Positions 10,911 to 53,535 of a DNA stretch of 64,000 nucleotides are shown here, piece after piece. Origin of the DNA: Agarophyton chilense (taxonomy: Eukaryota > Rhodophyta > Florideophyceae > Gracilariales > Gracilariaceae); NCBI GenBank assembly GCA_030374765.1, contig JARGXX010000071.1:620001-684000 (forward strand). The letters run 5' to 3'. The position numbers and the translations under genes are program-made. The notes under the pieces are model-generated. The model saw only the letters and a list, made by a program, of their open reading frames with translations, had not been told where the DNA came from and searched no databases. The stretch's first letter is position 1; every line of letters begins with the position of its first letter.

Positions 10911-11579
10911 TGTAGTATCCGCTCTAACGGAGAAAGAACAGACACCTGCGACAGCGTTCGTACTGCCGATGGGTCGCTTGCGGAGATGGAAAAGGGGTGG
11001 TAGAGCTACAACACTAGCGAGCTGGAAGTGGGGTGTAAGGCCCCTACTCGCCAGCGAGGGTGAACAGTGCAACTGTAAAACGTTGATGGAACGTAGGTAC
11101 GAGACGGCTCGTGAAGTGGTTGGGGGCTGAATATCTATTATAGCTCGTCCGGATCTCCGGTTAAGGAATCCTAAGCGAGGAACAGAATAGTCATGATGCC
11201 CATGTTGTCTCCTTTACTTGGAGTCGGCGCTCACCTCTGGTACACTATATACTGTGTACCAGGGTGAGTGCCCAAATAAATACATAAATAATACCCAGTG
11301 GTCAGCCACTTAGCCAAACCACTGTATGGGTATGGTCCCTAATGGACGTCTAGCTACAAAGGGTAGTACAACCAGCCAAGTGGATCGCCACTACATGCGC
11401 CGTTGCAAGCCACTCCACTCGTGATACCACGTGTCCCACTAAGACAGTCTGCCTCTAGGCATCCTATGCGGGATGCCGTTTCATATCACAATGTTGATGA
11501 TATCACTCACTTATGAGTTCCAACCGCGACTTCGCGAAAACCCAACATATCGGATTCCCCGACATAATAGAATACTACA
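10911..11579 (-). repeat. RT1 left LTR (3' LTR of gag-pol)
   Basis: Starts TGTAGTATCC and ends GAATACTACA, giving a terminal inverted repeat of about 9-10 bp. It carries a strong hairpin at 11226-11272 followed by an AATAAATACATAAATAAT stretch. Its right edge is also the upstream side of the plus-strand accessory ORF. Confidence 0.94.
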
Positions 11580-11589
11580 TACCCCCCTC
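11580..11589 (-). promoter_or_regulatory. RT1 polypurine tract
   Basis: On the coding (minus) strand GAGGGGGGTA lies directly before the 3' LTR, where plus-strand DNA synthesis is primed. The related element RT3 has the same kind of tract at the same place. Confidence 0.75.
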
Positions 11590-11747: not shown

Positions 11748-13415
11748 ATGAATCCGAACGCCGGGTCCAACCTGTTTCAGCCCTCCTCTGAGGATGTGCC
11801 TTCTGGGGCTCCGTCCAACACTGCTGGTTATGCGTCGCAGCCTACTGCTCAACTCGGTCCATACCGTTCGTTCCCCACACCGTACACCGGATTCCGGTCG
11901 GTACCGTTACCTCAGCCAACCGTGGCTCCGATGCCGAACGCGGCTTAAGTCGCCTCTGCTCCTTCTCGTCTTGCTCAGCGGAGCTACCCGCACCCTGCGG
12001 ATTTCTATGGACGAGAACCTCTCGACAACGTTGAACTTTTCGCGCAAGCGCCCTGGTTTGATCCAGTTGATATCCACGATGACGCGTTGATACAACAGTA
12101 TGTACACGGTGGGTACTTCCCTGATGGTATTCCGGAACACGCGATTTATAGCGACGACTGGGCGAGCCATATTTCTTTTCCAGACAACGCGATTGCGCGG
12201 TATTCAACGGAAACCTTGTCCGAAGCCCGTACGCGGTTCACCAAGCTGATTTACCATCGTCTTCACCGATTCATCAGTACGGTTCTCCTCCCGCAGGACT
12301 GGGAACTGGATACCTGGAAAGCCCGTACCGACGGTGAAGGTTACTCGTATATCGAGACACTCGTTGAAGTCGATGTTAGCAGTTGGCGCGGTGTGCGCGG
12401 TGTGCGTGATGCAGCTCTCTGCTTTCAGCAACCTCTTCTCCGTGCGGAGTTCCGATTCCTTCGAAAGCGTGACATTCCCTATTGGGATTATTCCCGTTGG
12501 GAACGTCGTACTCGATCACGTTTGGGCTATTTGGTGCCGTATCAAATGATCGAGATTGACTGCATCCGACAGAACGCGCGCTTCGGGCGCTACATCGGTA
12601 TTCCAGAGCATTGGGCGGCGATCGAGAGTCCTCGTGGTTGCCCTGTGGAGCTCCCACCGGCGATCTCCTACATCGGGTCCGCGTTGGTTAACGACCCGTT
12701 CTCGGGATATTGGACGGTGATTTATACCGAGTTTATCGCCAAGATGGCCGTCTTCCTCCTGTGGGATGCTTATGATACCTTTAGAGTTTGGTACATGTCG
12801 CCCACAGTGCGAAAGTATGCGAGAGAACTCGATCTTTCCCTTGTCCTGGGAACCCGTGCGAACAATGCCGACTTCCTCCATCTTGTGGATTTGATCGACA
12901 GTGTCGATTGGTCTGGAGTGCCAGCTGATCAATCCGCTCGCGGAACCCGTGCAAGACACTACGACCATTCCCTTGGACGAACAGCAAGTGCTGGAGATTT
13001 CGATTGGTACGACCCCTGGACGCGCCAGTTGATCACCTCCGAGCAGGCTCGCTTTCTTCGGGAGAACCTGCGTGACATGCCACCGAACCAGCTTACTGGA
13101 TACGTGTACGATGCTACTCCATCCGAGAACGGAGAGGAACCGTATGAGGAAGCGCCGGGAGCTGAGGCTGAACTCGGTTACGAGGACGAGCCAGAGCTAG
13201 CAGGCGTAGCGACTTCCGTCGATCAATCCGCAGCAGCGGGAGTTGCTCAAGAGTACTTTCATGGGTTTACCCAACAACCGAGTGCAGTGCCGGTTGAAGA
13301 TCCAGGCTTGGATCCACTGAGGCAGTTCCTCTTAGATGCGGGCTTTCCCGTGGACCAAGTTGAGGGTGATCGCGCACAGCTTCTTGCGAACCTGCGTGAT
13401 CGCACGTCTCTTTGA
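11748..13415 (+). CDS. RT1 convergent accessory ORF (antisense to gag-pol), unknown function
   Basis: One frame from ATG 11748 (MNPNAGSNLFQPSSEDV) to TGA 13415, about 556 codons, with a single in-frame TAA at 11946. Residues 1-80 are Pro/Ser/Gln-rich. The core, about 100-420, is aromatic-rich with PWFDPVDIHDD, GYFPDGIPEHAI, DGEGYSYIETL, KRDIPYWDYSRWERR, PPAISYIGSALV and AGDFDWYDPWTRQLIT. The tail is acidic (EEPYEEAPGAEAELGYEDEP). I see no zinc finger, signal peptide or transmembrane segment. RT3 encodes a close relative, and RT2 and RT4 encode distant ones in the same position, all opposite to gag-pol. The ATG lies about 170 bp inside the gag-pol 3' LTR, so that LTR or the flank must provide the promoter. 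An AATAAA at 13466-13471 could serve its 3' end. The function is unknown. Confidence 0.8.
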
Positions 13416-13749: not shown

Positions 13750-15768
13750 TTAGAAATGGGATGTGCCCATGAGCCCGACTATCGAGGAGTGGATCTCCCT
13801 GGGGAGTGGTAATCGCATGCGTCGATGATTTCGCACGAGCTGCGAACGGGGGATATGAGCTATAGGTTCCCACGTATCCGCTTCTGGAGGAAAACCGTAC
13901 CAACGGAGTTGATACAGTAATTCTCTAGTATCTTCATGCTCGCCATGTTCACATATGTGATCCATAACATATTCCTGGGCGTTTTCCAATGCTTTCGCTG
14001 TTGGCACGAGACTCCTGTTAACAGGTTTGAAATGCCTTAGGGATGACCCAAGCGTCTCTGTGTTAGCAGTCTCAGCGTCGCTAAGCGTTCGCTCGTCGAC
14101 TAACTGTCGTTCTGCCCGAAGGGGCAGTGTACTCATTCCTTTAGAACCTTTCTCAGATAAAGAGCTATCCTGTTTTCCAGGTTCCATAGAAGCGTACTTC
14201 TTGCTACGTCTCAATTCCATTCGTGGATGAACTTCCTTCGATTTATCCGATTCTGACCGCTGTTCGGTGGACGATGGTGCTTGCACCACGACAGGAGGCG
14301 GTACCTCTTCTTCTTCCTGTCCACGAGGGATGGGAGCCGATATCGGCTGAACAGCGAGTGGCGCTTCACCTGACGGTTCAGCCTGAAGCGGCAACAGCGC
14401 GTTTTCGCGTGCACTCGTTTCCAAGTCCTTGGGGCCAAATTCCAAAACATCTTTCCTGCTTTCAGGTTCCATTTCTGTACTTACGGGTGTTCTCGTGCCA
14501 CGGGGCGTATCCCGATACTTCGAAAGCTGTCCGTGATTGGCGTACGCAACCGCCGGCGGTTGGAGACCAGAAGCTTTCTCCTCCGCTCGAGCCATTGGTG
14601 GCGGTTCACTCTCCCCAGAGTCACTTGGGCTTTTGCCTTGACGTTCCGTCGCACTTGCCTCCTTAGTTCTACCAGATACCTGGACTTCCACTTGCGGGTC
14701 AGGCGCGACTTCAACGCGATCGCGCGATACACGTTCAACTTCCACACCTGTCTTGATGACCACTGTGTCTTCATTAAGGTCCACCACTTTGAAGGGTCCA
14801 GCCGCTATCGGCAACAACTTGTGACGAGATTCTTCCTGTTTGTCAGGTGTTTCGACTCGCACGAAGACGTGACCTCCTACTCGGATTGCCGGATTTTTTC
14901 TTCGCCTTCTGGCGTCATAGTTTCGCTTATAGCGAGCTTGCGTCTTTGATAACTCCTTAGCGGCTTCTTCCGCTCTGGCCTTCAGGTCATTCCTCCATTT
15001 CAGATGGTACTTAGCCGGGGTCGGCGCGTCCAATTCTGTCTCGTCGTCGAGCGCAACCGGTAAAGCCGGAGGGTTACGTGACAGCACGAGGTCGAACGGT
15101 GCCGTCTTTGTAGAGTTATGCACTTGCGTATTGTACGCGTAGCACAGAGTATCTGTAAACATGTCCCATTCTTTCGGGTGGTCCGCGATGTAGTGTGGTA
15201 GTGCTGCTATCAGCGTGCGGTTGAAACGCTCCACCTGACCGTTGCATTGCGGATGATAGGTCGTGGTAAACACGATTCGAATGCCCATAATGCGGCAAAC
15301 ATTCTGAAAGAACTTCGCAACGAATTGCTTCCCATTATCTGATGACAGAACTTCTGGTGGTCCGTATATAAATACCCAGTGTTTGATAAACGCCTGTGCA
15401 ATTACGGTTGCGGTTATCCGCTTCAGCGGCACAGTCCGCACTAGCTTCGAGAAGCGGTCGGTGATTCCCAATAGGTAGCGATAACCTCGCCTTAAGCGAA
15501 TCAATTCCCCTAGGGTGTCGATACTGACGTATTGTAAAGGCGCGTTCGCCTGGAATAACGTCATCGGTTTCCGCTTCCTGTAAAGCTTCACGCGATTCTT
15601 CGCACATGTTGTGTAAAACCTCACTGTAGCATGGCAGTCCATTGCCAAAGTAGGCCAGTACAAATCTCTTCTTAGAGTCATGAACAACTTCTTTCCTCCT
15701 GGATGACCAGACAGCCTGCTGTAGTGTGCCAGATGGAGTAATCGACTCTTCAAGACGTGTGGAATCAC
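13750..15768 (-). CDS. RT1 integrase with C-terminal chromodomain (part of pol)
   Basis: An open frame of about 670 codons. The N-terminal HHCC region has HLAH and SGHPGG, but the first Cys of the CxxC pair appears replaced (RFYTTCAK). The catalytic core shows the D,D,E triad: YVSIDTLGEL, LSSDNGKQF and GQVERFNRT. A Pro/Glu/Ser-rich linker of over 200 residues leads to a chromodomain at the end (YQLRWYGFPPEADTWEPIAH), which in chromoviruses directs insertion to marked chromatin. It continues the same frame as RT/RNase H across a TGA at 15808-15810. Confidence 0.92.
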   Translation of the reverse strand: MIPHVLKSRLLHLAHYSRLSGHPGGKKLFMTLRRDLYWPTLAMDCHATVRFYTTCAKNRVKLYRKRKPMTLFQANAPLQYVSIDTLGELIRLRRGYRYLLGITDRFSKLVRTVPLKRITATVIAQAFIKHWVFIYGPPEVLSSDNGKQFVAKFFQNVCRIMGIRIVFTTTYHPQCNGQVERFNRTLIAALPHYIADHPKEWDMFTDTLCYAYNTQVHNSTKTAPFDLVLSRNPPALPVALDDETELDAPTPAKYHLKWRNDLKARAEEAAKELSKTQARYKRNYDARRRRKNPAIRVGGHVFVRVETPDKQEESRHKLLPIAAGPFKVVDLNEDTVVIKTGVEVERVSRDRVEVAPDPQVEVQVSGRTKEASATERQGKSPSDSGESEPPPMARAEEKASGLQPPAVAYANHGQLSKYRDTPRGTRTPVSTEMEPESRKDVLEFGPKDLETSARENALLPLQAEPSGEAPLAVQPISAPIPRGQEEEEVPPPVVVQAPSSTEQRSESDKSKEVHPRMELRRSKKYASMEPGKQDSSLSEKGSKGMSTLPLRAERQLVDERTLSDAETANTETLGSSLRHFKPVNRSLVPTAKALENAQEYVMDHICEHGEHEDTRELLYQLRWYGFPPEADTWEPIAHIPRSQLVRNHRRMRLPLPREIHSSIVGLMGTSHF

Positions 15769-15807
15769 GATTTGATCATGCTTTTCGACATGTCTTAACA
15801 GTATTTC

Positions 15808-17751
15808 TCATGAATCGAGTGAAAAGGGGAGCTCCTCCCCCCCGTTAAGACGAGATCGTATCGACGCACAAAACGTATCGGCTTGTTGCTCATTGAGGAG
15901 CTCAGTGCACGAGATTCGCTCGAGTTGAACTGAAGGGTCATTGTCTGCTAATGCAAGGAACGGGTCTGCATCCGAATAATCATCAAGGGTCTCTTGTTCC
16001 TCTTCATCAAAAGATGTTGAATGGGTCTCCATGTAGAAGCAAGGTATCTCTTCATCTATTTCGCCTTGGGATTCGCCCAGTGTTTTGAGTCGCGATAGCG
16101 CGTCAGCTTGGACATTGGCCAATCCCTTCTTATACTTCACTTCGAAATCGAATTCAGAAAGGCGTAAGCGCCATCGTGTGAGACGACGAGACGGGTCTGT
16201 AATAGACAGTAACCATCGTAGAGACGAATGATCCGTGTTGACGGTAAAACGTTCTCCTTGGAGATACGGTCACATTGTGGTTAGAGCCCAAACGACTGCA
16301 AGGCATTCCTTTTCTGAAACTGAATACTTCTTCTCAGCTGCGTTCAGCGATCTTGACCACTAACCAATGGGTTTGCGTTCACCATCAGGGTGTGTTTGAA
16401 AAAGGGCACACCCTACTTGGTACTCGCTAGAGTCCGTATCCACTGAGTATGGCATGTTGGGGATGGGCAGCGCCAAGACTGGGGCTGTAATAATCTTTGT
16501 CTTCAGCGTGTCGAACGCTTCCACTTCAGCTTGTCTGAATTGTTCCATCTGTACTGGTCGTCCTTTACGCAGCTTTGCGTTGAGCGGTGCCACTATATGC
16601 GAGTATCGCGGCACGAATCGTCGGTAAACGTTGCACAAGCCGAGGAAAGAACGCAATTGCTTCTGTGTCGACGGAGGTTGTACTTCGCGGAGAGCCGCTG
16701 ATTGTGCCTCTTGAATGGCAAGCTGTCCCGGCTTGATCACATGTCCTAAGTACCGGACGGTGCCAGCAAACCATTCGCATTTCTTGAACTTGAAGGTGAT
16801 ACCTGCGCTCTGTAGTGCTTTGAGGATATCCTCGACATGCCGTAAATGGCTTTCCACATCCTGGGAAAAGATGATCACATCGTCCAAATAGACTAAACAA
16901 GTCTTCAACTTGTATCTTGAGAGCAAGATGTCCAGAGTACTCTGAAAAGTAGCCGGAGCATTCCTTAAGCCAAAAGGCATCCTTTTGAAACGGTAGAGAC
17001 CGGCGTGACACGCAAATGCGGTTTTATCTTGGTTTTCTTCCGCTACAGGCTCCTGCCAATAGCCAGAGTGGGCGTCCAACGTGGTGAACACGTTCGCTTC
17101 TCCTAAGCTGTCAATACATTCGTCCATTCGAGGCAACGGGTATGTATCCCGAACTGTAACTGCGTTCAGTTTTCGATAATCGATACAGAATCGTAAAGAA
17201 CCATCAGGTGTCGGAACCAGCACCACTGGTGAGGCCCAAGCAGATTGAGCTGCTTCGATTACTCCTTCTTCCAGCATTTTGCTGACATTCTCCTCCTCTA
17301 TTTGGCGAGTTCGCGGTCCCGCTCTGTAGGGTGGTTGGGAGATGGGTCGTGACCCTGGAACCAAATCAATATGGTGTTCCGTAGCGGAGATCTCTCCTAG
17401 TTTTCCACTCCACATGGATGTATACTTCTTCAGCATAGACCTGATCTTCGTTCTGTATTGTTCCAACACATGTGCTAAGTCTAGCTCATCGACCAGGCTC
17501 TGTAGATCCTTTGCCGTTTGCAATTGATCTCCAGACGGAGTTTGCAGTTCTTCGTCTGTGTCACCGACATGGGTTAATCCCAATACTTCTGCAGTACAAA
17601 TATGAGTAGGGACTACCACTGTGGGACGAGGCAAAGCTGTTGCAACAACCTGATTCTTCGGTATATGATAATCGTTATCGGTGAAGTTACTCACTAGTAT
17701 CCAAAAGGGGCTACCAGGATCAACCTGAACGATGCCGTTAGCGACTAGCAA
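15808..17751 (-). pseudogene. RT1 reverse transcriptase and RNase H (pol, with stops)
   Basis: The RT domain includes WASPVVLVPTPDGSLRFCID, FTTLDAHSGYWQ, RMPFGLRNAPATFQ and the catalytic YLDD (LVYLDDVIIFSQ). It is followed by RNase H with SVDTDSSEYQVGCALF and TDHSSLRWLLS. The frame is stopped by TAG at 16360-16362, between RT and RNase H where RT4 has Tyr, and by a TGA near 16268. RT3 carries the same TAG at the same codon. All segments share one frame with protease and integrase. Confidence 0.9.
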
Positions 17752-18528
17752 TCCACGGGATTCCTACATCCGAGTATTCGGTTGAATTACCACGAGTCCG
17801 TGTCGTTCTGTTCTTACTTGAATCCAAGTTTGGGTTTGCGCCTTCAGCATGGCACTCTTCGCTACTCGATTCCTCGGCGAGACACGTCCTCGGGATTTCC
17901 CGTATTCCATAGATAGTGGAAGTGGAGGTGCTTCGGGGCAACGACACATTGGCTTGCGAACAATTGGTACCATTGATCCATCATCTAGTTACACTAGTTT
18001 TCTTCGCGGGCGAATGGCTTCGGCAAACTTGTCGCAATAATTACATCCCAGTACCACTGGCGCAGCTAACGTCTTACAGACGATGAAGTCGACTAGGACT
18101 ACAAAGCGTCCCAAACGCACCACGAGTCGAACTGTTCCCAGTGTCTTCACAGCATTTTTGTTGGCATCCCGGATGTCCGGTAAAGGACCGTATCGAATAC
18201 GTTCTAAGTCAGCAAAAGCGAGCTCCGAATCCCGTATAAAGTTCGGACCAGCACCTGTGTCCAGGATAGTCAATCGACGAGATAACAGATTCCTGTCAGA
18301 GCCGATGTCGGCATAGACCTTATAGTTTCTTTAAGACACCACCATGAGGTAACTTTCCTGTTTTGACGGACAAGAATAACGTCTCCAAGGACGATGTAAC
18401 TCACAGTCAAACTGTACTCGCTTTCCGTCCGGCGGATTGATTCCGTATGGCGGAAATTTTTGAGGCCTCAAGAGAATCTTGTGCTTCCAAGCGCGGGAGC
18501 AGGGAGGCGAGCTCTCCCTGGTCAGCAC
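17752..18528 (-). pseudogene. RT1 protease region (pol N-terminus, with stops)
   Basis: A retropepsin with active site LDTGAGPNFI near 18250, in the same frame as RT. Comparison with RT3 shows that in-frame TAA codons near 18331 and 17989 and a TAG at the end of a segment near 17764 are substitutions. Gag is in a different frame, so synthesis of Pol would have needed frameshifting or reinitiation. Confidence 0.82.
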
Positions 18529-18569: not shown

Positions 18570-20723
18570 TTAGTTTTCCGGTTGCACCGGCTTATTCGCC
18601 TCAAAGACGCCTCTTTCTACCGCGGTTCCGGGTTGTAACACTTCAGCATTCTGAGCAACCGGTTTGTCCGTCCGGCGCATTGGTGTCTGAGAAAACCAAC
18701 TTTTGGCTTTCCAATACATGCCCGCCGGTACGCGGCTCCTTTCCTCTTCTGAGAGTGCTTCATAATTTGTCATGATACGACTTAGATCCTTTGCAGGAAG
18801 CGTGCATTCTGCACTCAAATGGTGTTTTCCATAACATGAATAACAGATCAAACCGTCACGACGGTTGGTCAACATAGGTTGTGAACGGTAGGCCATGCGA
18901 GTATCCACCCATCCGGGTTTCCCGTTCTTCAAACCTCCTTGTGGAGGCACCGTAGAGGGACGGTACATAGGGCGACGGCCCTCCATATCTATTAGGGCTT
19001 CCTCGTCCTGAGACTCCGAGTGTGAGAGATCCACCGTAGGTACAGAAGAGTCCGTATATTCCATTAAATGGGCCGCCTCCTCATACGAGTCACTCCCTTT
19101 GGGTGCTAACGACGTATCTCGTGAGTGCACTGGAGATTCCGGATGTAGCAGTTTGCTGCGCTGATTAACTCTGGCGGAGATCTTCTCCTTACCCATTGAG
19201 GTTCCAAAAGCCGTTGAACGACGGGGGCTACCACGCGCTCTGGCCGCGTCTCCTTCAGCTTTCACAAACTGAACTAACTCCAAAAAGGAGACTCTTCCAT
19301 GCTTCTCTCGATATCGAGCTACCAACGACTTGATGCTTGGGTCCAGCCCGTCGATGTACAAGGTAATCTTGTCCTCCGTCGAATGGACGTTTCCACAGCG
19401 GACTGAAGCTTTGTTAAGCCTTGAGCTGTACTCAGCTTCGGCCTCCTCAGGCTTTTGGGTCACATCCCTTAGGTCCAGGATCGCCTGACGTATCGCGTTT
19501 GAAGTCGCGTAACTGCGCAGCAAATACTGCACCGCCTCTGGCCATGAGGTAACGCCGACTTCATCGGCTGTCAATGATCCGCATACGGAACGATATTCCT
19601 CCAAAGCAAAACCCTTCAGGAAGTGTGGTAAATTCACAAATGCCTGTGGTTCACTCATCTCTAGAGTGTCTGTTTCGGCAACGAATCGAGTGAGAAACTC
19701 GATAACGAGAATGGGGGTTTTCCCATCAAATGTTAAATCATTAAGGCCGATCTTCAATCGTTTGATGTGATTCGTCACCTTCGCAGTTTGGCGTCCTGAG
19801 CACTTCTTGCTCTTCACCTTCAGACGGTAATACCCGTAATTCAGGACCTTCCGATAAAGCGGATTCGTGCACGGGAGGACCTTCAATTCTCTGTGAGGTG
19901 AGCCTTTTTTTCTCATTAACCACGAAGACGTGTTCTTCTTCTGAGATTGGAACCTTCGATGACCATCATCACTATCGTCGTCATCTGACGTATCTGAATC
20001 ATCAGAATCATCAGTACTGGAACTGAAACCCTCCGTACTTGACGATTCATCACTCGAATCACGTGCGGACTTCCGCTTCTTACGTCGTGACTTCGACTTC
20101 TTCGAACGAGCTTCCTTCAAAGGAGCTCCTTCCTCTTCCAGCACGACTGGTTTAGCAGCAGTCTGCGCATGAACTGCCGCCTCCAGGCGTTCTAAACGAG
20201 GGTTAACTCGAGTGAAGACTTCCTCTACATCCACGGTTAAGCCGGGTAGCGCATCGGGCGTATTCACGTACCTCTCCAGTAGATGGTTCAAATCCTCATG
20301 TAGTGTTTTCACTGATGCAGAGACCTGCTTCGCATCGTCTTGACGAACGAGTGCTTGATGCGCACTGCGTAATTGTTCGACATCAGCGATAAGAGCAGCG
20401 ATCTGCGATTCCAACGCAACCATGCGCACACGCGAAGCGCTTGACTCAGACTTGAGACGACGCACTTCCCTGCGCAAATCATCCTCTTCTTGAGGTCCGA
20501 CGACCTCAGGGTCAACTACGGCTTCTGTGGTGGGCGTGACTGCCGCTGCCACAGGGGCCGGTACATCCGAGAGATCTCGTTCATCATTCACCGAGCGTGA
20601 GCGCGACATCACTTGACAATACAGCCGCTCTCCGGCTTCAACAGATGAGGCGAGCCTCGGTTTCGGGGGTGGTCTCGCAGGACCGGGGCGACCAGTACAC
20701 GACTGGCTTCGGGTCTTCGGCAT
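18570..20723 (-). CDS. gag: RT1 Gag (capsid plus CCHC zinc knuckle)
   Basis: About 717 aa from the ATG at 20723 (MPKTRSQSCTGRPGP), chosen because RT3 has the matching start MPKKKTQSSTGAPGP. Order: a Pro-rich start; a predicted coiled coil (about residues 90-190); a basic block KKSKSRRKKRKS next to a long Ser/Asp run (about 235-270); a capsid-like region (LTFDGKTPILVIEFLTRF and LPHFLKGFALEEY); and the zinc knuckle CYSCYGKHHLSAEC. The frame is intact in this copy. Confidence 0.9.
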   Translation of the reverse strand: MPKTRSQSCTGRPGPARPPPKPRLASSVEAGERLYCQVMSRSRSVNDERDLSDVPAPVAAAVTPTTEAVVDPEVVGPQEEDDLRREVRRLKSESSASRVRMVALESQIAALIADVEQLRSAHQALVRQDDAKQVSASVKTLHEDLNHLLERYVNTPDALPGLTVDVEEVFTRVNPRLERLEAAVHAQTAAKPVVLEEEGAPLKEARSKKSKSRRKKRKSARDSSDESSSTEGFSSSTDDSDDSDTSDDDDSDDGHRRFQSQKKNTSSWLMRKKGSPHRELKVLPCTNPLYRKVLNYGYYRLKVKSKKCSGRQTAKVTNHIKRLKIGLNDLTFDGKTPILVIEFLTRFVAETDTLEMSEPQAFVNLPHFLKGFALEEYRSVCGSLTADEVGVTSWPEAVQYLLRSYATSNAIRQAILDLRDVTQKPEEAEAEYSSRLNKASVRCGNVHSTEDKITLYIDGLDPSIKSLVARYREKHGRVSFLELVQFVKAEGDAARARGSPRRSTAFGTSMGKEKISARVNQRSKLLHPESPVHSRDTSLAPKGSDSYEEAAHLMEYTDSSVPTVDLSHSESQDEEALIDMEGRRPMYRPSTVPPQGGLKNGKPGWVDTRMAYRSQPMLTNRRDGLICYSCYGKHHLSAECTLPAKDLSRIMTNYEALSEEERSRVPAGMYWKAKSWFSQTPMRRTDKPVAQNAEVLQPGTAVERGVFEANKPVQPEN

Positions 20724-20916
20724 CCTAGACCAAACCTGAGTCCAGGTGCGAACCAAATGGTGTCTTCGACTTCTCGACCAGGTGTTCAACCACGATGAAT
20801 TCTTCAATTGCCGGAGGTGGTTCGATAAACAATAACTGTAGTGATTCCACTTCTTTCAAGTATCGATATCGATTCCACGTTCCAGGAACGAATTGTTCAG
20901 TGCAGCTGACCACAGT

Positions 20917-20938: not shown

Positions 20939-21605
20939 TGTATTATCCGCTCTAACGGAGAGAGCAGACACCTGCGACAGCGTTCGGACTGCCGATGGGT
21001 CGCTTGCGGAGAAGGAAAAAGGGTGGTAGAGCTACAACACCAGCGAGCTGGAAGTGGGGTGTAAGGCCCCTACTCGCCAGCGAGGGTGAACAGTGCAACT
21101 GTAAAACGTTGATGGAACGTAGGTACGAGACGGCTCGTGAAGTGGTTGGGGGCTGAATATCTATTATAGCTCGTCCGGATCTCCGGTTAAGGAATCCTAA
21201 GCGAGGAACAGAATAGTCATGATGCCCATGTTGTCTCCTTTACTTGGAGTCGGCGCTCACCTCTGGTACACTATATACTGTGTACCAGGGTGAGTGCCCA
21301 AATAAATACATAAATAATACCCAGTGGTCAGTCACTTAGCCAAACCACTGTATGGGTATGGTCCCTAATGGACGTATAGCTACAAAGGGTAGTAGAACCA
21401 GCCACGTGGATCGCCACTACATGCGCCGTTGCAGGCCAGTCCACTCGTGATACCATGTGTTCCACTAATGTACCCTGCCTCCTGGCATTCTACGCGGTGT
21501 GCCGTTTCATATCACAAGTTTGATGACATCACTCACTTATGAGTTCCAACCGCGACTTCGCGAAAAACCAACCTATCGGATTCCCCGACATAGTAGAATA
21601 CTACA
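20939..21605 (-). repeat. RT1 right LTR (5' LTR of gag-pol)
   Basis: 667 bp, TGTATTATCC to GAATACTACA, closely matching the left LTR, with the hairpin at 21252-21298. One base of the terminal repeat differs (TGTATT against TGTAGT). It should hold the gag-pol promoter reading leftward. Confidence 0.94.
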
Positions 21606-21967
21606 TTAAGAAGCTCACGCACTTCATGTTTTCCAGAAAGACTAATCACAACTTTTTCCGTGTCCCTAAGGGACTTCCCGAGCTTTGCTTTTGCTTTCGA
21701 AATCTTGTCATTGAACACCTTGGGATCATGTTTAATAGGATTGTTTTCATAAGGAAGGTCATTATCAAATACATCATAGTTATGAACCGTTGTTTCTGCG
21801 TACCGCTAAGGCTTCTCCCTCAAGTCTTTTCTCGGTTGTGACTTCAACATTCCCACACTGTATGCAGCTGGGATCCCAAAGGAAATGTTAACTGCATGGA
21901 ACGTAGTGATAAATCGGATCGTTTTTCGGCAGAGAGACTTTCGCCAATGGAAAGATCTGGCACCCTG
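21606..21967 (-). pseudogene. Segment of an interrupted reading frame between RT1 and RT3
   Basis: These 362 bp are not LTR. They begin with the right TSD of RT1 (TTAAG, 21606-21610) and end with the left TSD of RT3 (CCCTG, 21963-21967). On the minus strand they encode KSLRDTEKVVISLSGKHEV (continuing in frame into 10905-10854 when RT1 is removed) and, in another frame, IRFITTFHAVNISFGIPAAY (continuing in frame from 41623 onward when RT3 and the solo LTR are removed). They are parts of one older minus-strand gene or element, with a frameshift inside. I could not identify the family. Confidence 0.5.
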
Positions 21968-22623
21968 TGTAGTATCCGCTCTAACGGAGAGAGCAGACAC
22001 CTGCGACAGTGGTCGCCACTGCCGAATGGCTGCTTGCGGCTAAGGGGAAGATTTGGTAGAGCACAACAATAGCGAGCTAGAATGAGGGTTGCAATGCGCC
22101 ACTCTCCAATGGTTGTGGTTCGTACTATGGAACGGACAAGTACTTGTTGTAGCTTATCCGGATCTCCGGTTAAGGATTTCTGAACAAAGAACAAGTCAGT
22201 TTTGTGAACCCGTTTGTTGTCTTCTTTACTTTGGAGTCGGCGCTCCCCTCTGTGCCTTAAGTACTGTGCACAGGGGTGAGCGCCGTACATAATAATATCT
22301 AGATATAAACTTGGTTAGCCAATTAAGCTCTCTACAGTACGAGATAAAAAGCTCTAAATGGGCGTCCGCCTACGAAGGGTAGGCCTGAATGCCACGTGGC
22401 TACCCCCTTTATACGTCGTTGCCAATCCGGTATTTCCCTACAAAGTTTCGAACCGGATGCGCCGTGGCAGACCGAAATCCCACGTGTAACATACCATCTC
22501 ACGGGCTACCTGCGGGGGGGGCGGCTTCATAACTTCATCCTAGCCGTTGCACTCACTTATGAGTATCATCATACTTAGCCAAAAACATCTTCCATCGGCA
22601 TTCCGACTGTGCAGAATACTACA
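21968..22623 (-). repeat. RT3 left LTR (3' LTR of gag-pol)
   Basis: TGTAGTATCC to GAATACTACA, related to the RT1 LTR at both ends and in the hairpin region (22239-22284). The polypurine tract CAGGGGGGAAG (minus strand) abuts it at 22624-22634. Confidence 0.92.
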
Positions 22624-22746
22624 CTTCCCCCCTGTTGATCGCGAAGCACCGGCGAAGCAAAACGTCTTTCTGTACCCGAGTATGAATCTGCATTCCGAAA
22701 TTCCCTCGTCTCCACGAAAGTACCATCTATTTCGACTTGATCAGCG

Positions 22747-23735
22747 ATGAACCCATACGCGCCGCACAACTCCAACAACGGAGACACACCCTCAGAGGGT
22801 CCTTACGCCAGCAGTGCTTTCAATTCGCAAGCTGCGGCACCTTCGGTTTTCTGATCAACGCGGTCTCCTCGCGTGGATTTTCACTCCCTGCCTTTACAGC
22901 CTTCGGCTTCAGGGGTGATATCAAATGCAGCCTATGTATCTTCCGCTTGAATAATTCGAGCGCCGGCTCTTCAGGCTCAACGCAGCTATCCACATCCCGC
23001 GGACTTGGAGAGACGAGACCCTCTCGACGATTTTGACAACTTCGCACAGGCTCCCTGGTTTGACCCAGTCGCTCTTCGCGATGACACGTTGATCGGCCGA
23101 TACGTCTTCAGCAGTTACCTTCCAGATGGCCTTCCATATGTGGCTATCCGCAGCCACGGTTGGCGTACTCACTGTGCTTTGCCATATAACGCGATTGCCC
23201 GGTATACCAACGAAAGTATTGACGAAGCCCGAACTCGGTCCACCAAGCTGATACACCAGCGTCTGAACCGTTTCATTACCACTGTCGTTCTCACTGGAGA
23301 TTGGATTCTGAATCCCCGGATGGTTCGCACGAATGGCGAGGGGTACTCGTATATCGAGACCTTATACAAAGTCGACGTCGACGAATGACGCGACTTACGC
23401 GATGTACGCGACGCGGCGCTCTGCTTTCGCTGGCCCGTGCTCAGTGCGGACTTCCGCTTTCTCCACGAGAAAGACATTCCTTACTGGGATTATCCTCGTT
23501 GGGAACGACGTGCGAGATCCCACTTTGGTTACCTGGTTCCATACCAAATGATCGAGATTGATCGAATTAGGCGGAGTGCTCGCGTCAGACGCTATGTCGC
23601 GCTGCCAGAACACTGGGCGGAGGTCGAGAGCCCTCTTGGATGTCCGGTGGATCTTCTTCCTGCCATAACCTATATCGGTTCCGTGTTGATTAACGATCCG
23701 TTCTCGGGATACTGAACTGTCGTGTTCTCCGAGTT
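22747..23735 (+). pseudogene. RT3 accessory ORF, 5' half, interrupted by RT2
   Basis: Starts with ATG 22747 (MNPYAPHNSNNGDTPSEGP), matching the MNP start in RT1. One frame runs to 23735 with a few stops. The core is clearly homologous to RT1: NFAQAPWFDPVALRDDTL, YLPDGLPYVAIRSHGW, NGEGYSYIETLYKVDV, EKDIPYWDYPRWERR and LLPAITYIGSVLINDPFSGY. The frame is cut exactly at the RT2 TSD (GAGTT) and resumes at 33882. Confidence 0.85.
23731..23735. repeat. RT2 target-site duplication, left copy (GAGTT)
   Basis: GAGTT is repeated at 33877-33881, immediately after the right LTR of RT2. In both copies it encodes the Glu-Phe of the interrupted RT3 accessory frame. Confidence 0.9.
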
Positions 23736-24181
23736 TGTAACGCAATTTCAGGTGGCTCATCGTACAAGTCTCGACCGGTGGTAGTGTGGTAGAGCGGGTT
23801 CTAAGGTTCTAATCCTTGACGGCGGCACTCCCAGAGTACTTGATGCAATGGGCTGGCCTTTACTGCGTAGTACTACAGGTAGGAGCTACGGAAACGATGG
23901 CTTGAAGACCAATTGGCGAAACTAATATACCAAAGGGGGTTATTTAGTATCCTAACGGTTCCTACCGTACCCTAAGGTAGAAGCGTCACTCGAGCCAAGT
24001 GAATAGTACTGGCGAGGCGCTGGGATCTCCCTGGCATTGTAATGCTAATCTATTAAACTAATTAAAACAAACAAATAATCTACATGAGTCCAGAGGAGGT
24101 CAGCCCGTTCACGTGTCGCCTGTACGATACATCAGGACCCGGCGGATTACAGGTCTCAACCGTTATCGTTGCTCCTTCACA
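23736..24181 (-). repeat. RT2 left LTR (3' LTR of gag-pol)
   Basis: 446 bp from TGTAACGCAA to CTCCTTCACA. On the minus strand the polypurine tract AAGGAGGGAGATA lies directly inside it (24182-24194). Confidence 0.9.
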
Positions 24182-24747: not shown

Positions 24748-26714
24748 ATGGCTTCAAACAACCAAGCAGGGAGCTCCTCGAGATACCAAGTAGCATACGA
24801 ACGTCCCGGGGACCGCAATGACCATACCATCGGACGAAAACAGAGGTTAGTGCGTCATGCCGTTCTTCCGTCCTCTGTTGAAGATTAACAAAGTTTCCGC
24901 CATATTTATCTCGACGCCCGGAGGTTCGCTACATTATCCGATTTCCGGAGGGGTAGCAAAAACGCGCGCAGCCTCACGTGGCACCAACGGTGGTTAAATT
25001 TTCCTGTGGATCCGCGTTCGGCGACTCGCTGTGGCACCCTCATCAAAGCGGAAATGCCGTACGTCCGCTGCGAGCAGGAAGCCCAGTACCAATTCAGCGT
25101 GAATAAACTCCTTTCGGACCTATACACGGACTTCATCTCGCCTCATGGGAGATTTCCTCCGGCGGGTCACAACCTCTTGGCGCTCATGCGCTTTCGACCG
25201 CAGTATGACCACCTGTTCTGGATGTCCAATAGGGTCTATTGGAACGAGATGCATGAGGGTGATGGTCGTTTACGTCGATCCCGGGCGTTCTTCTTTTGCT
25301 GGCACCAGGTGGAATTTCACGACATGAGCGCAGACAAAGGTCTTCGGTTATATCTTTCGCTTCCCCACATGGATGAGAACCAATGGGCCATGTGTTGGCG
25401 GGTCTCGGCGCTCCTTTTGGTTCCTACGCCGTCTGTGGTGGCGTACCACTCGTCCCATCTCATGGGCGATGACAATGACCGAAGGTCGTGGCTGTCCTGG
25501 TAGATACTCTTCGTTGAGTTCGGCGTGATGTCCCCTATGGCCTTCCTGGACACCGCGAAGAACGGAATCCGTGGAATGTCCGTTCGGAAGATTGAAGGTT
25601 ATGGTACGACGAGAACATACCCAGTCCTCGAGGTCGCCTAATCCCGATCCCGTACATCATGATCCGTTTCTTAAGGAACCTGGGCATCCAGAATATCGTT
25701 CGTGGGACCCAGCTCGCCGTCGAGGAGACCGAGGCCCTTTTGGGTCATGTCATACAGGTGGGGTGGGGAAAGACTCCCGGGTTTCTTTGGTATGATCACG
25801 ATACCTACTCGTTCACGCCGATTCCGCTGCATCCACAGGGTTGAGATGATACTCGTGCCTATCCCTCCAAGCCTTTGAGGAATCAATCATCGGATATCCC
25901 GAGGCGTCATGTGCCTGACTATTATCCGAAGACGATTGGTTTCGATTCCCTGTGCTTCGAGCCTGAATTGGAAGCCACGCCGAGTGTTCCTGCTGATATG
26001 TCCGATTGAGAATCTTTCGGGAAATATCTTTTTGTCCTACCTGTGGAGGGCAACAATCCTCCGCTCCAGCTCGCTGTTGTTTTGCCGACCGTTTCCCCTC
26101 CTCCAGCCACTCCGGGCGCTGCTCCTCAGGATGAACTCTCATATGAGCCGCCCTTCGTTCAAGTGGACATCCCTCCGGGCGACGTTAATGTGGAAGCGGA
26201 AAGTCCTGTAGGTGAAGCGCTTCCTCAGACGTCAACTTGGCGCGTCGACATCGCTCCGCCCTCTCCATTGTTGCGTTTTCCCGCTTCGGTTACGGCTGCA
26301 GCCGTGAATCTCCGTCATGTCTGCCGTACCGTTTGTATCACTGCCTCGATTGACATTGCGGCAGTCCTGAGGGAAGCTTGCTTTTGGCTGCGTCGCTCGG
26401 TGCACTACGTCGCGGTTGTCCAACAGGGTTAGGATCTGAAGACCGCCATAGTCAATGTCCTGCAGCAGAATGCCCAAGTAATATCCCAGAGAATTACTGC
26501 CGACTTGGATGCCCGGTATGGTCTAAATTGGAGTGACCGGGAGGCTTCCGATGGTGACAATAGTTCCTCAGGTTAATCTCCGCCGAAGAAGCGTGCTCGG
26601 CTCGCTGGGGCAGGATCAGGTGGTCCAGTTGGCTCCTCGGGTGACCATAGTCCCAGTTTCGCTCCTGAAGGTTCACAGGAGGATGACGGAGTAACTCATG
26701 CGCCGCCCCAGTGA
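24748..26714 (+). pseudogene. RT2 convergent accessory ORF with NLS-like motif
   Basis: Start ATG 24748 (MASNNQAGSSSRYQVAYERP). One frame runs to about 25640 with stops at 24886 and 25501, then a shifted frame to TGA 26712-26714. Segments matching the family are PYVRCEQEAQYQFSVNKLL, LLVPTPSVVAYHSSHLM (RT4: SVPTPPVLAYFGSQI), FVEFGVMSPMAFLDTAKNG (RT1: YTEFIAKMAVFLLWDAYD) and GFLWYDHDTYSFTPIPLHP (RT1: DFDWYDPWTRQLIT). The C-terminal part has SPPKKRARLAG, a classical nuclear-localisation pattern. It is about 650 codons, like the RT4 version. The accessory stop and chromodomain stop are about 180 bp apart. Decayed; function unknown. Confidence 0.72.
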
Positions 26715-33431: not shown

Positions 33432-33876
33432 TGTAACACAATGGCGGGTGGGTCAGCGTACGGGTCTCGACCGGTGGGAGCGTGGTAGAGCGGGTCCTAA
33501 GGTTCAAATCCTTGACGGCGGCTCTCCCAGAGTACTTGGTTCAATGGGCTGGCGTGTACTGCGTAGTCCTACAGGTTGGAGCTACCGAAACGATGGTTTG
33601 AAGACCAATTGGTGGAAGTAATATACCAAAGGTGGTTATATAGTATCTTAACGGTGCCTACCTTACCCTGAGGGAGAAGCGTTACTCGAGCCAAATAAAT
33701 AGTACTGGCGGCGCCCTGGGATCTCCCCGGCACTGCAATTCTAATCTATTAAACTAATTAAAATAAACTAATAATCTACATGAGTCCAGCTGAGGTCGGC
33801 CAGTCCACGTGGGTTTGTAAGAAACCTTAGGCCCCGGCGGCTTATAGGACTCAAAAGTTATCGTTGCTTCGTCACA
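33432..33876 (-). repeat. RT2 right LTR (5' LTR of gag-pol)
   Basis: 445 bp from TGTAACACAA to TCGTCACA, followed by the TSD GAGTT (33877-33881). Differs from the left LTR at many sites. Confidence 0.9.
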
Positions 33877-33881
33877 GAGTT

Positions 33882-34575
33882 CATTGTCAAGATGGGAACG
33901 TAAATCCTCTGCGATGCATACGATACCTATCGAGATTGGTTCATGTCGCCAAAGAGGCGGATATATGCGAAACAACTCGATCTTTCCCTTGTGTTGGGGT
34001 CTCGTGCCAATTATGACGCATTCCTACTCTTGGTAGACTTGATCGACAGTATCGACTGGCATGGCGTTCCATTGGAGCAATCAGCTAGAGGCACAAGGGT
34101 GCGTTATCGAGATCACTCGCCGGGACGCACAGCTAATGCCGGAGATTTTGTATGGTACAACCCCTGGACCAGCCAGATAATCACGTCTGATCAGGCTTGT
34201 AAACTTCGTGCGAATTCTTTGGAGTGCCCTTCATATCAGCATACTGGATATGTGTACGAATCCACAACTTCTGAGTTTGCAGATCAGGAGTATGAAGAAT
34301 GTACAGGTGCTGATGCAGAACTCGATTTCGAGGATGAACCTGAACTATCCGGTACTGCGCCTGTGACGGCTGCTTCGCTACCAACGGCTACGACATCGGG
34401 TGTCAACCCGTCGATGGGATTCCATCAAAGGTTCGCCGAACAACCGAGCGATGCGGAGGATCCCTTTTTGGCACCTTTGAAATTATTCCTCTTAGACGTG
34501 GGGCTCGCCGAAGCACAGCTGCAAGGCCATCGTGCTACGCTTACCGTTATGCTGAATCATCATACCAGCGAGTAA
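33882..34575 (+). pseudogene. RT3 accessory ORF, 3' half
   Basis: Resumes after the second GAGTT with AYDTYRDWFMSPKRRIYAKQ (RT1: AYDTFRVWYMSPTVRKYARE), preceded by one stop. It continues through LDLSLVLGSRANYDAFLLLV, DLIDSIDWHGVPLEQSARGT, GDFVWYNPWTSQIIT and the acidic segment ADAELDFEDEPELSG to a stop at 34575. It ends about 310 bp from the convergent chromodomain stop. Confidence 0.88.
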
Positions 34576-40552: not shown

Positions 40553-41172
40553 TGTAGTATCCGCTCTAACGGAGAGAGCAGGCACCTGCGACAGTGTTCG
40601 GGACTGCCGAATGGGTGCTTGCGACAAAGGGGAAGATGTGGTAGAGCACAACACTAGCGAATTAGAATGGGGGTTGTAAGGCCCCACTGGCCCGTGAGGG
40701 TGGTTGGTACTATGGAACGGAAAAATACTTCTTGTACATTGTCTGGATCTTCGTTTAAGGAATCCCGAACAAGAAACAAGTGAGTTGTGAACCCATTTGT
40801 TGTTCTTTTTTGCTTTGGAGTCGGCGCTCTCTTCTGTGTCTTAAGTGCAGTGCACAGGGGTGAGCGCCGCACATAATAATATCTAGATATAAACTTGGTT
40901 TGCCGAATAACCTCTCTACAGTACGGGATAATGGTTGCCACGCGGCTACTCACTACAGTATATGCGCCGTTTCCAATCCGATATTTCCCTAAAAAGGGTC
41001 GAATCGGATGCCCCGTTGCAGACCGAGATCCCAAGTGTAACATACAACCACACGGACTATCGGCGGGGTGCCGCTCCATAACTTCATTCTAGCCGTTGCA
41101 CTCACTTATGAGTATCATCATACTTAGCCAAAAAAAACTTCCATCGGCATTCCGACAGTGCAGAATACTACA
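40553..41172 (-). repeat. RT3 right LTR (5' LTR of gag-pol)
   Basis: 620 bp from TGTAGTATCC to GAATACTACA, with a partly preserved hairpin at 40823-40868. It lacks a segment of about 40 bp present near 22345-22390 in the left LTR. Confidence 0.91.
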
Positions 41173-41175
41173 CCC

Positions 41176-42525: not shown

Positions 42526-43159
42526 TGTCGTATAGTGGCACAAGGGATGACCTTTGAGGTTGTCGATATACTACACTGACCTTGTAGGTGATGGATGCGA
42601 GGGATCATCGGCCACGCAGCTCCGGGCGAGCTACCATCTAGGTGTTGTCAGCCACGTGTAGTGTTGACATGTACCTTCTGGTTGAGTAATTATTAGTAAT
42701 AGTAATTGTAATTAGATGTATTTTAGTACAGTAGTGGAGTGGCCACCTGGCACTGTAGCCAGTGTTGCCCAGGTCTCTGACACTAGGTCAGAGACCGTGC
42801 CTTGCTGGCACCTCCCGGGTGATCTGGAGAGTGCAGTCCACTGCATATAGGAAACTGCACCTCCCCCATCCTAATCTGATAAATACAGGCATCACTTGGG
42901 TCACGACCATACCTTTTGGTTCATTGTTTCTCAACTACCACACAGGCTTTCCCGCGCGTCGACACCTACCGTCGTTCACCCACACGGTATAGGCTAGTCG
43001 CCCCGCCGTTGGCCCCTGCAGAATTTCACGGTGCCCTGTTACCATCGAGGATTACTACGTCTACCTTCTAAGGTTGAGCGTCACCACTCTCCCTACAGTT
43101 GAGCGTCACCACGCTTCCGAGACAAGACAGTAGCATACCCCAGAGGTGATTGTACGACA
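42526..43159 (+). repeat. RT4 left LTR (5')
   Basis: 634 bp with TGTCGTA/TACGACA terminal inverted repeat. The family has at least three LTR copies in the window. Confidence 0.93.
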
Positions 43160-48931: not shown

Positions 48932-49609
48932 TCGGGACAATATGTCTACATAGACAACCCATCTTCAGGTAAAAGACCACGAACGGGTGATGAAACAGAC
49001 GATGAAGCTATTGACAGAGATATCAATTCGAAGCTTCTACCCAAATCAGTGGGACCTTAAAAGGTATTGAACGCATCAGACCACACCATTACGGTTGACC
49101 AAGATGGAATACCGAATACGATATCAATTGACCGTATTACGGTAGCACCTGAAACGGTTCAACATCGCATGGAGGCGGACACCTCAGCCCGAGAGCCCAG
49201 AGCGGTAGCTCTGCGCACTCGACCCTCGGAGGACCCCACCCCAATTGAGGGGAGTGATGAACTACAACGGGATGGTCTGGGTTATAACCCTCTAACAGGG
49301 ACGAAAATGGAATCTCACACGGTAACAGTGGGAGCTCCCGACTCTGCTCCGACACACGAAGCTCCCAACTCGGAACATATGAACCCTCGACGTAGCGTTC
49401 CCCCGAAAGATCAGGACCAAACCTCAGAGGAATTTCCCACTGACCGTCTGGTGGGCCACACGCGAACCTACAATGGTTTGAAGTACAACGTCAGGTGGTA
49501 CGGCTGGGGCCCAGAAGGGGACACCCTCCAACCCCCAGCCGCATTACCCCCACACTTCCGTATCAGGTATTGGCGCCGTCACAAAGAGCCAATGCCTGCA
49601 GACAACTAA
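48932..49609 (+). pseudogene. RT4 integrase linker and chromodomain
   Basis: The same frame as the integrase after two stops (48929-48931 and near 49058). A polar linker ends in a chromodomain-like segment (NVRWYGWGPEGDTLQPPAAL) near 49490-49540. The usual Trp-Glu-Pro is Leu-Gln-Pro here. Confidence 0.8.
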
Positions 49610-49829: not shown

Positions 49830-51770
49830 TCACGGAGGAAAAACTGCGGAAATGCTAGGAGCCATAGACCTAGGAGGTAGCGAAGGAGCGGTAGCCCCGC
49901 CACTGGGGAGAGGAGTCGAAACCAAAAGATGATGAACGAAAGGAACCGCCGGAGCGGGTTGCAAAACCGCAGGGTTCAAGTTAGCCCCTAGAATGGAATC
50001 CGTCAAAGGCTCAGATGGCGCGGCAGCAGAGACGCTTGCCAGCTTGGCAACCTGACGGGTGGCCAGTTGGTACGTGTCCAACTGGAACTAATTCCGGAAC
50101 TCACCAAGTTGGTTCAGCGCCTTCATGTATTGCGCATGGCGCGGCAGCAAACCTTCAAGGAGCGTTAATGCAGCAACCATAGAGGTAGGACTAGCCCTCT
50201 GAAAGTTGGTGACGAAAGACTGGCGAATTCGAGCCAGCAAACCGACCACGGCCGTAGAATCCATCATAGGTTGAGGTGGAGGACGAGCAATACCCGCCAA
50301 CAGAGGTCGAACCGGACCAGCAACCCGCGAGGCGCTCGGTTGAGTAGGAGTCATACCCGTAGAGATAGGCGACTTACGACCTTGAGGTAAAGGCTCGGAC
50401 GAGAAGGGACCAGCATAACGACCAACTGGTGTCTCCACAGTACCGTGATAAGGTTAGGGACTCGCGGGAGTTCCATAAACAGGAGGCTCCGCTGGATAAT
50501 ATTGGGCGTGGCGAGGCACAATCTCCCAAGTTGCGGGATCGAAAGCCTCCCAACCTTGATGGGAATCCCAATGGTAATTCTTGCTCTGCTCGAGATTCGA
50601 GTCTAAATCCTTCACGGTATAATCGGTCCCCTCCACGATTTTCTCGTAACCAAATCGGGAAATATCCTGGGCAACCCTCGGAGGTATGAAGAAGATGCGA
50701 CCTACAGGTTGAACACCATCTCGGTATATGTCAGAGTCGAAATTGCGACAATCCCAATCGATACCGTAACGGGCGGCCTCCAGAGTCAGGATGGCAACCA
50801 ACACGGTCCACTCCGGAAGGGCAATCGACCAAATGAGGTAATACCGCTCTAGATTCCGGGAAATCTGACTCCCGAAGTACGCCAAAACCGGCGGAGTTGG
50901 AACGCTCAGCGATAACGGAACCTCATAGGACTCCCACAACTCTGGTCGAAGCACGTACCAATCTTGACTGCCATTCGTAGGTTGTGAGAAGTAATCGACG
51001 GTATGAAACATATGCATAAAGCGAGTGTAAGAGTTGCGAGTGCGAACGCGACTTTCCGTCGCTGCATCCTTGCCCCACCTACTACGGTCAGCCCAATTGA
51101 TGGTGGTGAAAGGCCGATTCAGGGAAACCAATTCAGGTGAAACCGGAAGGTAAGTCTCCGGAATAGACAGGTACTGGCAGACTTGCACCACCAATCGACG
51201 GTAATAATCCAGATCCGGTTCGATGCGCACATACGGCAAGTCGCTGGGATATATCGGCGGGATAAAATACCTCAAAGGTTTTTGACGCTGCCGACTCTGG
51301 TAACATTCCAGTCGACCTTGACGAGGTTGAGACTCCTGGTCCCGTTTCTTCAAGAGCAATCGAACGGAGCGAAGGCGCTCGCAGTCCCAACGGGACAAAC
51401 CCAAGTAGGTATCCAATTGTGGTCTGGTAAGAGCTCCCGGCAATGACGAATTCCCCACCGCCACAGGCCAATCGTGCTTCAACAGGTCATTGCTCGTTAC
51501 CTGGTTGAAGGTAATACCAAAAGGTCCATACTGCCTCGTCGTCCGGTTCACCGCAAGGAACGCGAGATTGTGAGCCCAATTGGGTTATCTTGTCGGAGGA
51601 AGTCCACCACTGCGTTAGTACGGGTCAGCCGGAGTCCCAGGGGAGAACTGAGTCGCAGGGACAGGCACGCTGCGAAACCCAATGTTGATAGGCGTTCGAG
51701 AAGTCGAACAAGTCACCCTCTTGGTAATACCACCGCGTCCACGGCCACGCGATGGACCGTTACCTGACAT
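49830..51770 (-). CDS. RT4 convergent accessory ORF (antisense to gag-pol)
   Basis: One minus-strand frame from ATG 51770 (MSGNGPSRGRGRGGITKR) to about 49830, about 645 codons. It has a few stops (near 51615 and 51590, and at 50454 and 50088), with one uninterrupted stretch of 365 codons (51551-50454). Core motifs match the other elements: IYPSDLPYVRIEPDLDYY, PELWESYEVPLSLSVPTPPV, LAYFGSQISRNLERYYLI and HWDSHQGWEAFDPATWEIVP (RT1: GDFDWYDPWTRQLIT). The C-terminal part is Pro/Ser/Ala-rich and the N-terminus has an RGRGRGG motif. It ends about 220 bp from the chromodomain stop. The protein family is unrecognised. Confidence 0.75.
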
Positions 51771-52926: not shown

Positions 52927-53535
52927 TGTCGTATAGTGGCAGAAGGGTTGACCTTTGAGGTTGTCGATATACTACACTGACCTTGTAGGTGATGGATGCG
53001 AGGGATCATCGACCATGCAGCTCCGGGCGAGCTACCATCTAGGTGTTGTCAGCCACGTGTAGTGTTGACATGTACCTTCTGGTTGAGTAATTGTTAGTAC
53101 TTGTAATTGTAATTATACTTATTTTAGTACAGTAGTGGAGTGGCCACCTGGCACTGTAGCCAGTGTTGCCCAGGTCTCTGAAACTAGGTCAGAGACCGTG
53201 CCTTGCTGGCACCTCCCGGGTGATCTGGAGAGTGCAGTCCACTGCAAATAGAGAACTGCACCTCCCCCATCCTAATCTGATAAATACAGGCATCACTTGG
53301 GTCACGACCATACCTTTTGGTTCATTGTTTCTCAACTACCACACAGGCTTTCCCGCGCGTCGACGCTTACCATCGTTCACCTACACGGTATAGGCTAGTC
53401 GCCCCGCCGTTTGCCCCTGCGGGTTTTCACGGTGCCCTGTTACCATCGAGGTTCACTACGTTTACCTTCTAAAATTGAGCCTCACCATGCTCCCGAGACA
53501 AAACAGTAGCATACCCCAGAGGTGATTGTACGACA
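52927..53535 (+). repeat. RT4 right LTR (3')
   Basis: 609 bp, closely similar to the left LTR apart from scattered substitutions and about 25 bp missing in total. Confidence 0.92.

Follow-up and report, generated by a model that had tools for sequence, protein, structure and literature searches.

Antisense open reading frames placed between pol and the 3′ LTR are known from plants. Passages of PMC7264820 and PMC11963269 describe them in maize Grande (gene23), rice RIRE2 and Silene Retand (ORF4/TRP28), all of unknown function, and the former traces the description of such extra ORFs back to 1997. Outside plants, an antisense ORF occupies the same place in Boty, an element of Botrytis cinerea/Sclerotinia sclerotiorum (part of PMC7264820). 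The initial annotation of the locus studied here had rightly pointed to plant precedents for the antisense position. Since this position is known in plants and, from one element, in fungi, the novelty lies in the protein and its setting, not in the architecture.

A third gene opposite gag-pol in red-algal chromodomain elements

We analysed a window of 64,000 nucleotides (G000:C71:620001-684000) in the 79.8 Mb, 135-contig genome of the red alga Agarophyton chilense. Comparison of this window with itself delimited four LTR elements, RT1, RT2, RT3 and RT4 (Table 1), RT3 being split by the insertion of RT2. The end of pol in RT1 matched the chromodomain profile PF00385 with 26.5 bits (cut-off 25.1), which is the feature of chromoviruses, i.e. 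Ty3/gypsy elements with a chromodomain. The chromodomains of RT3, RT4 and RT2 were recognised by similarity to that of RT1 (59%, 32.5% and 33%; E = 1e-34, 2e-9 and 5e-7, respectively); the RT4 piece alone had no Pfam match. The RT1 region carrying the DTGA motif presumably encodes the protease. Most of the RT3 integrase is lost (34888-36700), with matches to RT1 limited to 25 residues and the chromodomain part.

Table 1. Position of the LTRs, gag-pol domains and antisense genes within the window.
Feature	Position	Strand	Remarks
RT1 3′ LTR	10911..11580	-	95.1% identity with 20939-21606
RT1 antisense gene	11748..13415	+	555 codons from ATG to stop; codon 67 (11946-11948) is an in-frame stop
RT1 integrase and C-terminal chromodomain	13750..15807	-	PF17921, PF00665, PF00385
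RT1 RNase H part	15808..16269	-	position and similarity between elements
RT1 reverse transcriptase and start of RNase H	16360..17763	-	PF00078
RT1 presumed protease region	17989..18330	-	DTGA motif
RT1 gag	18570..20855	-	PF03732
RT1 5′ LTR	20939..21606	-	pair of the 3′ LTR, self-comparison
RT3 3′ LTR	21968..22624	-	80.2% identity with 40553-41173
RT3 antisense gene, first part	22747..23735	+	four in-frame stops; interrupted by RT2
RT2 3′ LTR	23736..24181	-	85.7% identity with 33432-33876
RT2 antisense gene	24748..26714	+	extent of the initial annotation; decayed over two frames, several stops
RT2 5′ LTR	33432..33876	-	self-comparison
RT3 antisense gene, second part	33882..34575	+	open 33904-34575
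RT3 5′ LTR	40553..41173	-	self-comparison
RT4 5′ LTR	42526..43159	+	91.3% identity with 52927-53535
RT4 C-terminal pol, stretch like RT1 chromodomain	49061..49609	+	convergent with antisense gene
RT4 antisense frame	49830..52400	-	four in-frame stops before the end stop at 49830
RT4 3′ LTR	52927..53535	+	self-comparison

Reverse transcriptase identity is 61-67% between RT1 and RT3 and, depending on the stretch, 44-58% among RT1, RT2 and RT4; the gag proteins of the latter three share 28-31% identity. The elements therefore form three groups, RT1/RT3, RT2 and RT4, in agreement with the earlier count of at least three families. The LTRs of RT1 and RT3 have short stretches in common, at 76-82% identity.

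A group of red-algal Ty3/gypsy chromodomain elements carries a third gene opposite gag-pol, at the same place, and this gene is homologous in three families. In all four elements of the window it lies between the chromodomain and the 3′ LTR, and the position, strand and coordinates first assigned to it were confirmed. The initial annotation had described open frames of 550-650 codons, but none of the four copies is intact: stops are present in RT1, RT3 and RT4, and a frame shift with stops in RT2. In RT1, the gene begins 167 bases inward of the 3′ LTR, is open over 488 codons (11949-13415), and ends 334 bases from the stop of pol (13750). It encodes the motifs APWFDP (12048-12065), RWERRTR (12495-12515), PPAISYIGS (12654-12680), TEFIAKMA (12726-12749), WYDPWT (13005-13022) and LRQFLLDAG (13317-13343). 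The copy in RT3 is cut in two along with its element, that of RT2 retains an open piece (24889-25503) and a PPKKR stretch at 26580, and the RT4 frame has candidate starts at 52235 (MTGSRH) and at 51770, the latter chosen in the initial annotation.

Other features of the window were noted in passing. Tandem repeats separate the convergent genes in RT1 (13521-13639, 30-base units) and RT3 (34620-34812, 102-base units), and an array of about seven units of 42 bases lies just outside the RT1 3′ LTR (10511-10814). There are two apparent solo LTRs, one RT2-like (41209-41622) and one RT4-like and inverted (55150-55783). Beside the nest of elements stands a host gene with a photolyase domain (648-2465; PF00875), which we take to be of the class II type; other flanking host genes encode a CDP-alcohol phosphatidyltransferase, a nucleoside diphosphate kinase and a SpoU methylase.

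Relatives of the gene were found in other copies of these families across the genome, where the initial annotation had reckoned with the chance of finding none. The places scored were the best of the candidates: 88 of 1785 for RT1, 109 of 1471 for RT4 and 150 of 591 for RT2. All of them matched, at 88-100% identity with the RT1 protein (88/88; in 20 the part that matched is free of stops), at 78-100% with the RT4 protein (109/109; 14 without a stop, two of these partial) and at 67-100% with a 204-codon RT2 query (150/150). With P0009, a distant database relative, as the query, all 82 of the places scored matched, at 37-43%. Open relatives measured from stop to stop reach 611 codons in the RT1 family (L006, L011, L012, L015 and L020-L023), 698 in the RT2 family (L072) and 842 in the RT4 family (L039); since L020-L022 have identical reading frames, not every one of these loci is independent. 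Counted from the methionine at which two A. chilense gene models begin, the RT1-type length is 560.

The position of the gene was assessed in the best 30 of the 88 RT1 loci, the best 20 of the 109 RT4 loci and the best 20 of the 150 RT2 loci plus L072, the window copies included. The end of pol with the chromodomain was found on the opposite strand at 30/30 RT1, 20/20 RT4 and 13/21 RT2 loci; the RT2 loci had short flanks, so that misses there are not absences. At these same loci, C-terminal pol was never the best match on the antisense gene's own strand. An LTR was detected at 30/30 RT1, 18/20 RT4 and 19/21 RT2 loci, and among the loci listed it lay upstream. Another chromodomain family, represented by L074 (G000:C113:592400-593700; positions 181-801 and 927-1301), has a 206-codon sense ORF after the chromodomain; its sole antisense frame of note (124 codons) is cut off where the stretch ends, and looks by eye like a chromodomain, apparently of a second element.

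Purifying selection on the antisense frame

The coding capacity of the antisense strand was assessed by comparing RT1 with RT3 in all six frames (NG86, codons with stops or gaps left out). The antisense frame gave an ω of 0.132 over 255 codons in the first part of the gene and of 0.189 over 220 codons in the second. The mirror frame on the other strand followed with 0.26 and 0.39, and the remaining four frames ranged from 1.25 to 2.6. Mismatches fell preferentially on third codon positions, with rates of 0.237/0.160/0.537 in the first part (p = 6e-15) and 0.268/0.265/0.522 in the second (p = 9e-7). In the same RT1/RT3 comparison, the gap that separates the convergent genes displayed no codon signal (p = 0.92; ω 0.58-1.2).

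These values are close to those of the core proteins of the same pair, 0.157 for reverse transcriptase and 0.150 for gag. The dS between RT1 and RT3 was 1.6-2.2 in the values used, which is near saturation, and a comparison with a dS of 5.9 (ω 0.056) was not used. YN00 gave 0.15 and 0.18, in two of six family comparisons, and since it yielded values in these two only, ω rests mainly on NG86. These findings demonstrate that the antisense gene is a protein gene on which purifying selection has acted between RT1 and RT3; the ω of 0.13-0.19 lies well away from the neutral value that the initial annotation had considered.

Variation within families was also examined. Pairs of RT2 copies gave an ω of 0.21-0.70 with two methods. 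When variants shared between copies were compared with singletons, dropping sites with other than two states and leaving out codons with stops or gaps, amino-acid changes were less frequent among the shared variants of RT2 (p = 7e-11; 2e-7 without a majority reference). The result was borderline for RT4 (p = 0.0008 in one form of the test, 0.059 in the other), and no contrast was seen for RT1 (p = 0.67 and 0.29; 0.27 without near-identical copies). The RT1 result was unchanged when one duplicate locus, and then two more near-identical ones, were dropped. It may reflect a shortage of inherited variants in recent copies, or selection that has recently been weak, and it lends an element function no support.

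Homology between families and the predicted protein

The shuffle comparison proposed in the initial annotation came out in favour of homology, though only once database relatives had been added. With profiles built from the A. chilense genome alone, RT2 and RT4 were linked with a probability of 97.7%, and RT1 was not linked to RT2 (0.08%) or to RT4 (0.05%). With the relatives included, the scores rose above every shuffle: RT1-RT4 scored 65.4, RT1-RT2 57.3 and RT2-RT4 90.3, against best values of 31.8, 23.0 and 26.9, respectively, in 60 trials each with column-shuffled profiles, and of at most 20 with reversed ones. By this sequence comparison, the antisense proteins of RT1, RT2 and RT4 are homologous.

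The shared blocks originally listed fared unequally. PPxxxYxGS and the predicted helix that follows it stand in the same register in all three families, and WYDPxT aligns RT1 with RT2 and, less surely, RT4. The (F/Y)xxDxPYxxI block is common to RT2 and RT4, but does not extend to RT1, where RDIPYW stands in another register.

Database searches yielded nine relatives with the RT1 query, three with RT2 and twelve with a mixed profile, one of the latter having been found before. Those with a named source came from A. chilense (nine, i.e. 6/9 of the RT1 hits and 3/3 of the RT2 hits; best identity 90%) and G. chorda (two, BWQ96_03215 and BWQ96_08668), the rest being nameless. Two scans of viral contigs with single proteins returned no relatives.

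By the antisense protein, RT2 and RT4 are the nearest pair. They are also the nearest by integrase (RT2-RT4 44%, RT1-RT4 41-43%, RT1-RT2 38%) and by gag (31%, 29-30% and 28%, respectively), the margins being small for all three proteins. The reverse transcriptase core gives a different order, with 58.0% for RT1-RT4 and 52.3% for RT2-RT4 (RT1 16360-17763, RT4 46392-47051, RT2 29321-30421), so that the gene may have descended together with pol, or may have been exchanged between families.

No family in Pfam, PHROGs or the PDB matched the protein above chance. Pfam gave no match above chance for the four antisense proteins (E up to 1) or for 17 members (E up to 0.1), and PHROG none better than E = 0.09. 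Searches of PDB sequences retrieved none for RT1 or the 17-protein profile and, for RT4, two at E = 0.33 and 0.53. Hits to MBD (E = 0.074), E3_binding (E = 0.16 and 0.029) and two PHROGs (E = 0.19 and 0.09) were taken as chance. A SAP/Ish1-like nature of the C-terminal helix pair was treated as a guess: one of 17 members hit Ish1, at E = 0.09, and the tails of RT1 and RT2 alone hit nothing.

A structural model of the RT1 type (P0005, 17 sequences) was weak overall (mean pLDDT 53.5, pTM 0.48), with better blocks at 311-380 (pLDDT 75-90) and 401-430 (pLDDT 75-91). It predicts a helix over YxGS (pLDDT 59-68) and a long one spanning TEFIAKMA, followed by short helices, by two paired strands at WYDPxT and, at the C-terminus, by a pair of helices (pLDDT 62-79). 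The RT4 model (pLDDT 46.8) repeats this order of helices and strands after PPxxxYxGS; its alignment held RT1-type rows, so that it is not independent. The initial annotation had proposed structure prediction and fold search; Foldseek with the weak RT1-type model produced no match above chance: none in the PDB, none among 16 with VIA-align, and five in a viral library, all at E of at least 3.6. Because no match of any kind was found, the protein looks non-enzymatic; it is also predicted to be mostly helical and, in RT1 (Kyte-Doolittle maximum 1.22), without a membrane-like segment.

Proposed role and comparison with known systems

The element function put forward in the initial annotation is supported by selection that, between RT1 and RT3, is strongest in the antisense frame and at the level of reverse transcriptase and gag, by an unvarying position at 50/50 loci of the RT1 and RT4 families, and by the homology of the proteins from three families. 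We propose that the gene would be read from an antisense transcript of its own, and that such convergent transcription would permit expression independent of gag-pol. The protein, with a predicted disordered N-terminal arm, a mostly helical core, an acidic tail and a C-terminal helix pair, would act in trans as a non-enzymatic accessory, most probably as a nuclear regulator aiding the element's own transcription, silencing or targeting. We give this reading, a trans-acting nuclear accessory made from its own antisense transcript, an even chance. Nuclear action and regulation are suppositions here, the former weakly founded, since a K[KR]x[KR] stretch occurs in only one of ten proteins scanned (that of RT2).

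We considered the possibility that the antisense RNA, rather than a protein, limits or silences the element, the ORF being incidental. The convergence of the RT1 genes, 334 bases apart, means that read-through would give double-stranded RNA, and the idea of an antisense RNA is raised for plants in a passage of PMC7264820. Yet neither the codon-position pattern nor an ω of 0.13-0.19 would be expected from a role of the RNA alone, which makes this explanation very improbable, though as an added effect it may hold. Still harder to credit is a captured host gene without function for the element. Captures are known in plant elements (part of PMC7264820), but the homologues across three families and the selection at reverse transcriptase level argue against one here, and none of the 9, 3 and 12 database hits bears the name of a host gene, the names being 'unnamed' or 'hypothetical' and many hits nameless, so that a host copy may exist.

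The place between pol and the 3′ LTR is that of env, and a structural or envelope-like protein, i.e. a component of the particle or of cell-to-cell passage encoded in antisense, would agree with the hydrophobic stretches of RT4, P0008 and P0018 (Kyte-Doolittle maxima 2.09, 1.86 and 1.85). We consider it unlikely: the gene is on the opposite strand, the sense orientation of env-like genes being absent at the loci examined, where the end of pol lies opposite. Moreover, RT1, P0005 and P0009 attain only 1.0-1.3, and the hydrophobic stretch (TEFIAKMA) contains both acidic and basic residues and is modelled as a long helix, in the region predicted with better confidence. In the RT4 family, given its value of 2.09, a transmembrane segment may be present. 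A helper of integration or nuclear entry, which would join the integration complex and steer it together with the chromodomain, is a more serious alternative, though a rather doubtful one. It would fit the adjoining C-terminal pol with its chromodomain (50/50 RT1 and RT4 loci and 13/21 RT2 loci examined) and an order of closeness that follows integrase, an order from which the reverse transcriptase core departs.

We tentatively suggest, with somewhat less confidence than in the reading as a nuclear accessory, and with an estimate lowered by the deviating order of the reverse transcriptase core, that the gene is an old third gene of a group of red-algal chromoviruses, which would predate both the families and the split between Agarophyton/Gracilaria and Gracilariopsis, would have a new fold and be needed as much as reverse transcriptase, and would be an independently evolved counterpart of the antisense gene of plant Retand.

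The likeness to Grande, RIRE2 and Retand lies in position, strand, presence in most copies and unknown function (as far as described in parts of PMC7264820 and PMC11963269). Two traits of the plant aORF-3R class recur here: an antisense ORF between pol and the 3′ LTR (30/30, 20/20 and 13/21 loci), and a degree of conservation on a par with the element's other proteins (RT1 versus RT3, ω 0.13-0.19 against 0.157 and 0.150). Genes of the Grande type are further marked by an antisense promoter of their own and a nuclear protein, which for the algal gene are suppositions. PF04195 (Transposase_28), the domain of Retand TRP28, had no match in the four antisense proteins (E up to 1) or in 17 members (E up to 0.1); its one match in the whole genome lay elsewhere, with 20.2 bits against a cut-off of 26.2. 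The protein is therefore distinct from TRP28 by sequence, and a distant relation at the level of the fold may exist. The hosts and elements differ too, Retand being classed as a non-chromovirus of flowering plants in the literature, whereas the red-algal elements carry a chromodomain. Boty shares the position; among the database hits of the antisense proteins, none bore the name of a fungal protein. The sunflower Tekay chromovirus has a chromodomain and, in many copies, an extra protein, but its ORF stands at the 5′ end (part of PMC11728184). HBZ of HTLV-1, a minus-strand gene with promoters in the 3′ LTR (passage of PMC10186651) and a nuclear product (passage of PMC11963269), resembles the present gene in its way of working, a likeness drawn apart from sequence.

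In searches of open-licence papers, we noticed no description of the present gene from red algae. It extends the antisense genes of LTR elements to a distant lineage, the red algae, and to elements with a chromodomain; selection on it, resolved by strand and frame, is at about the level of reverse transcriptase between RT1 and RT3. As a high-copy family without a Pfam, PHROG or PDB match, it may inflate gene counts in red-algal annotations. Should convergent antisense genes have arisen repeatedly at this location, it may meet a need common to LTR elements.
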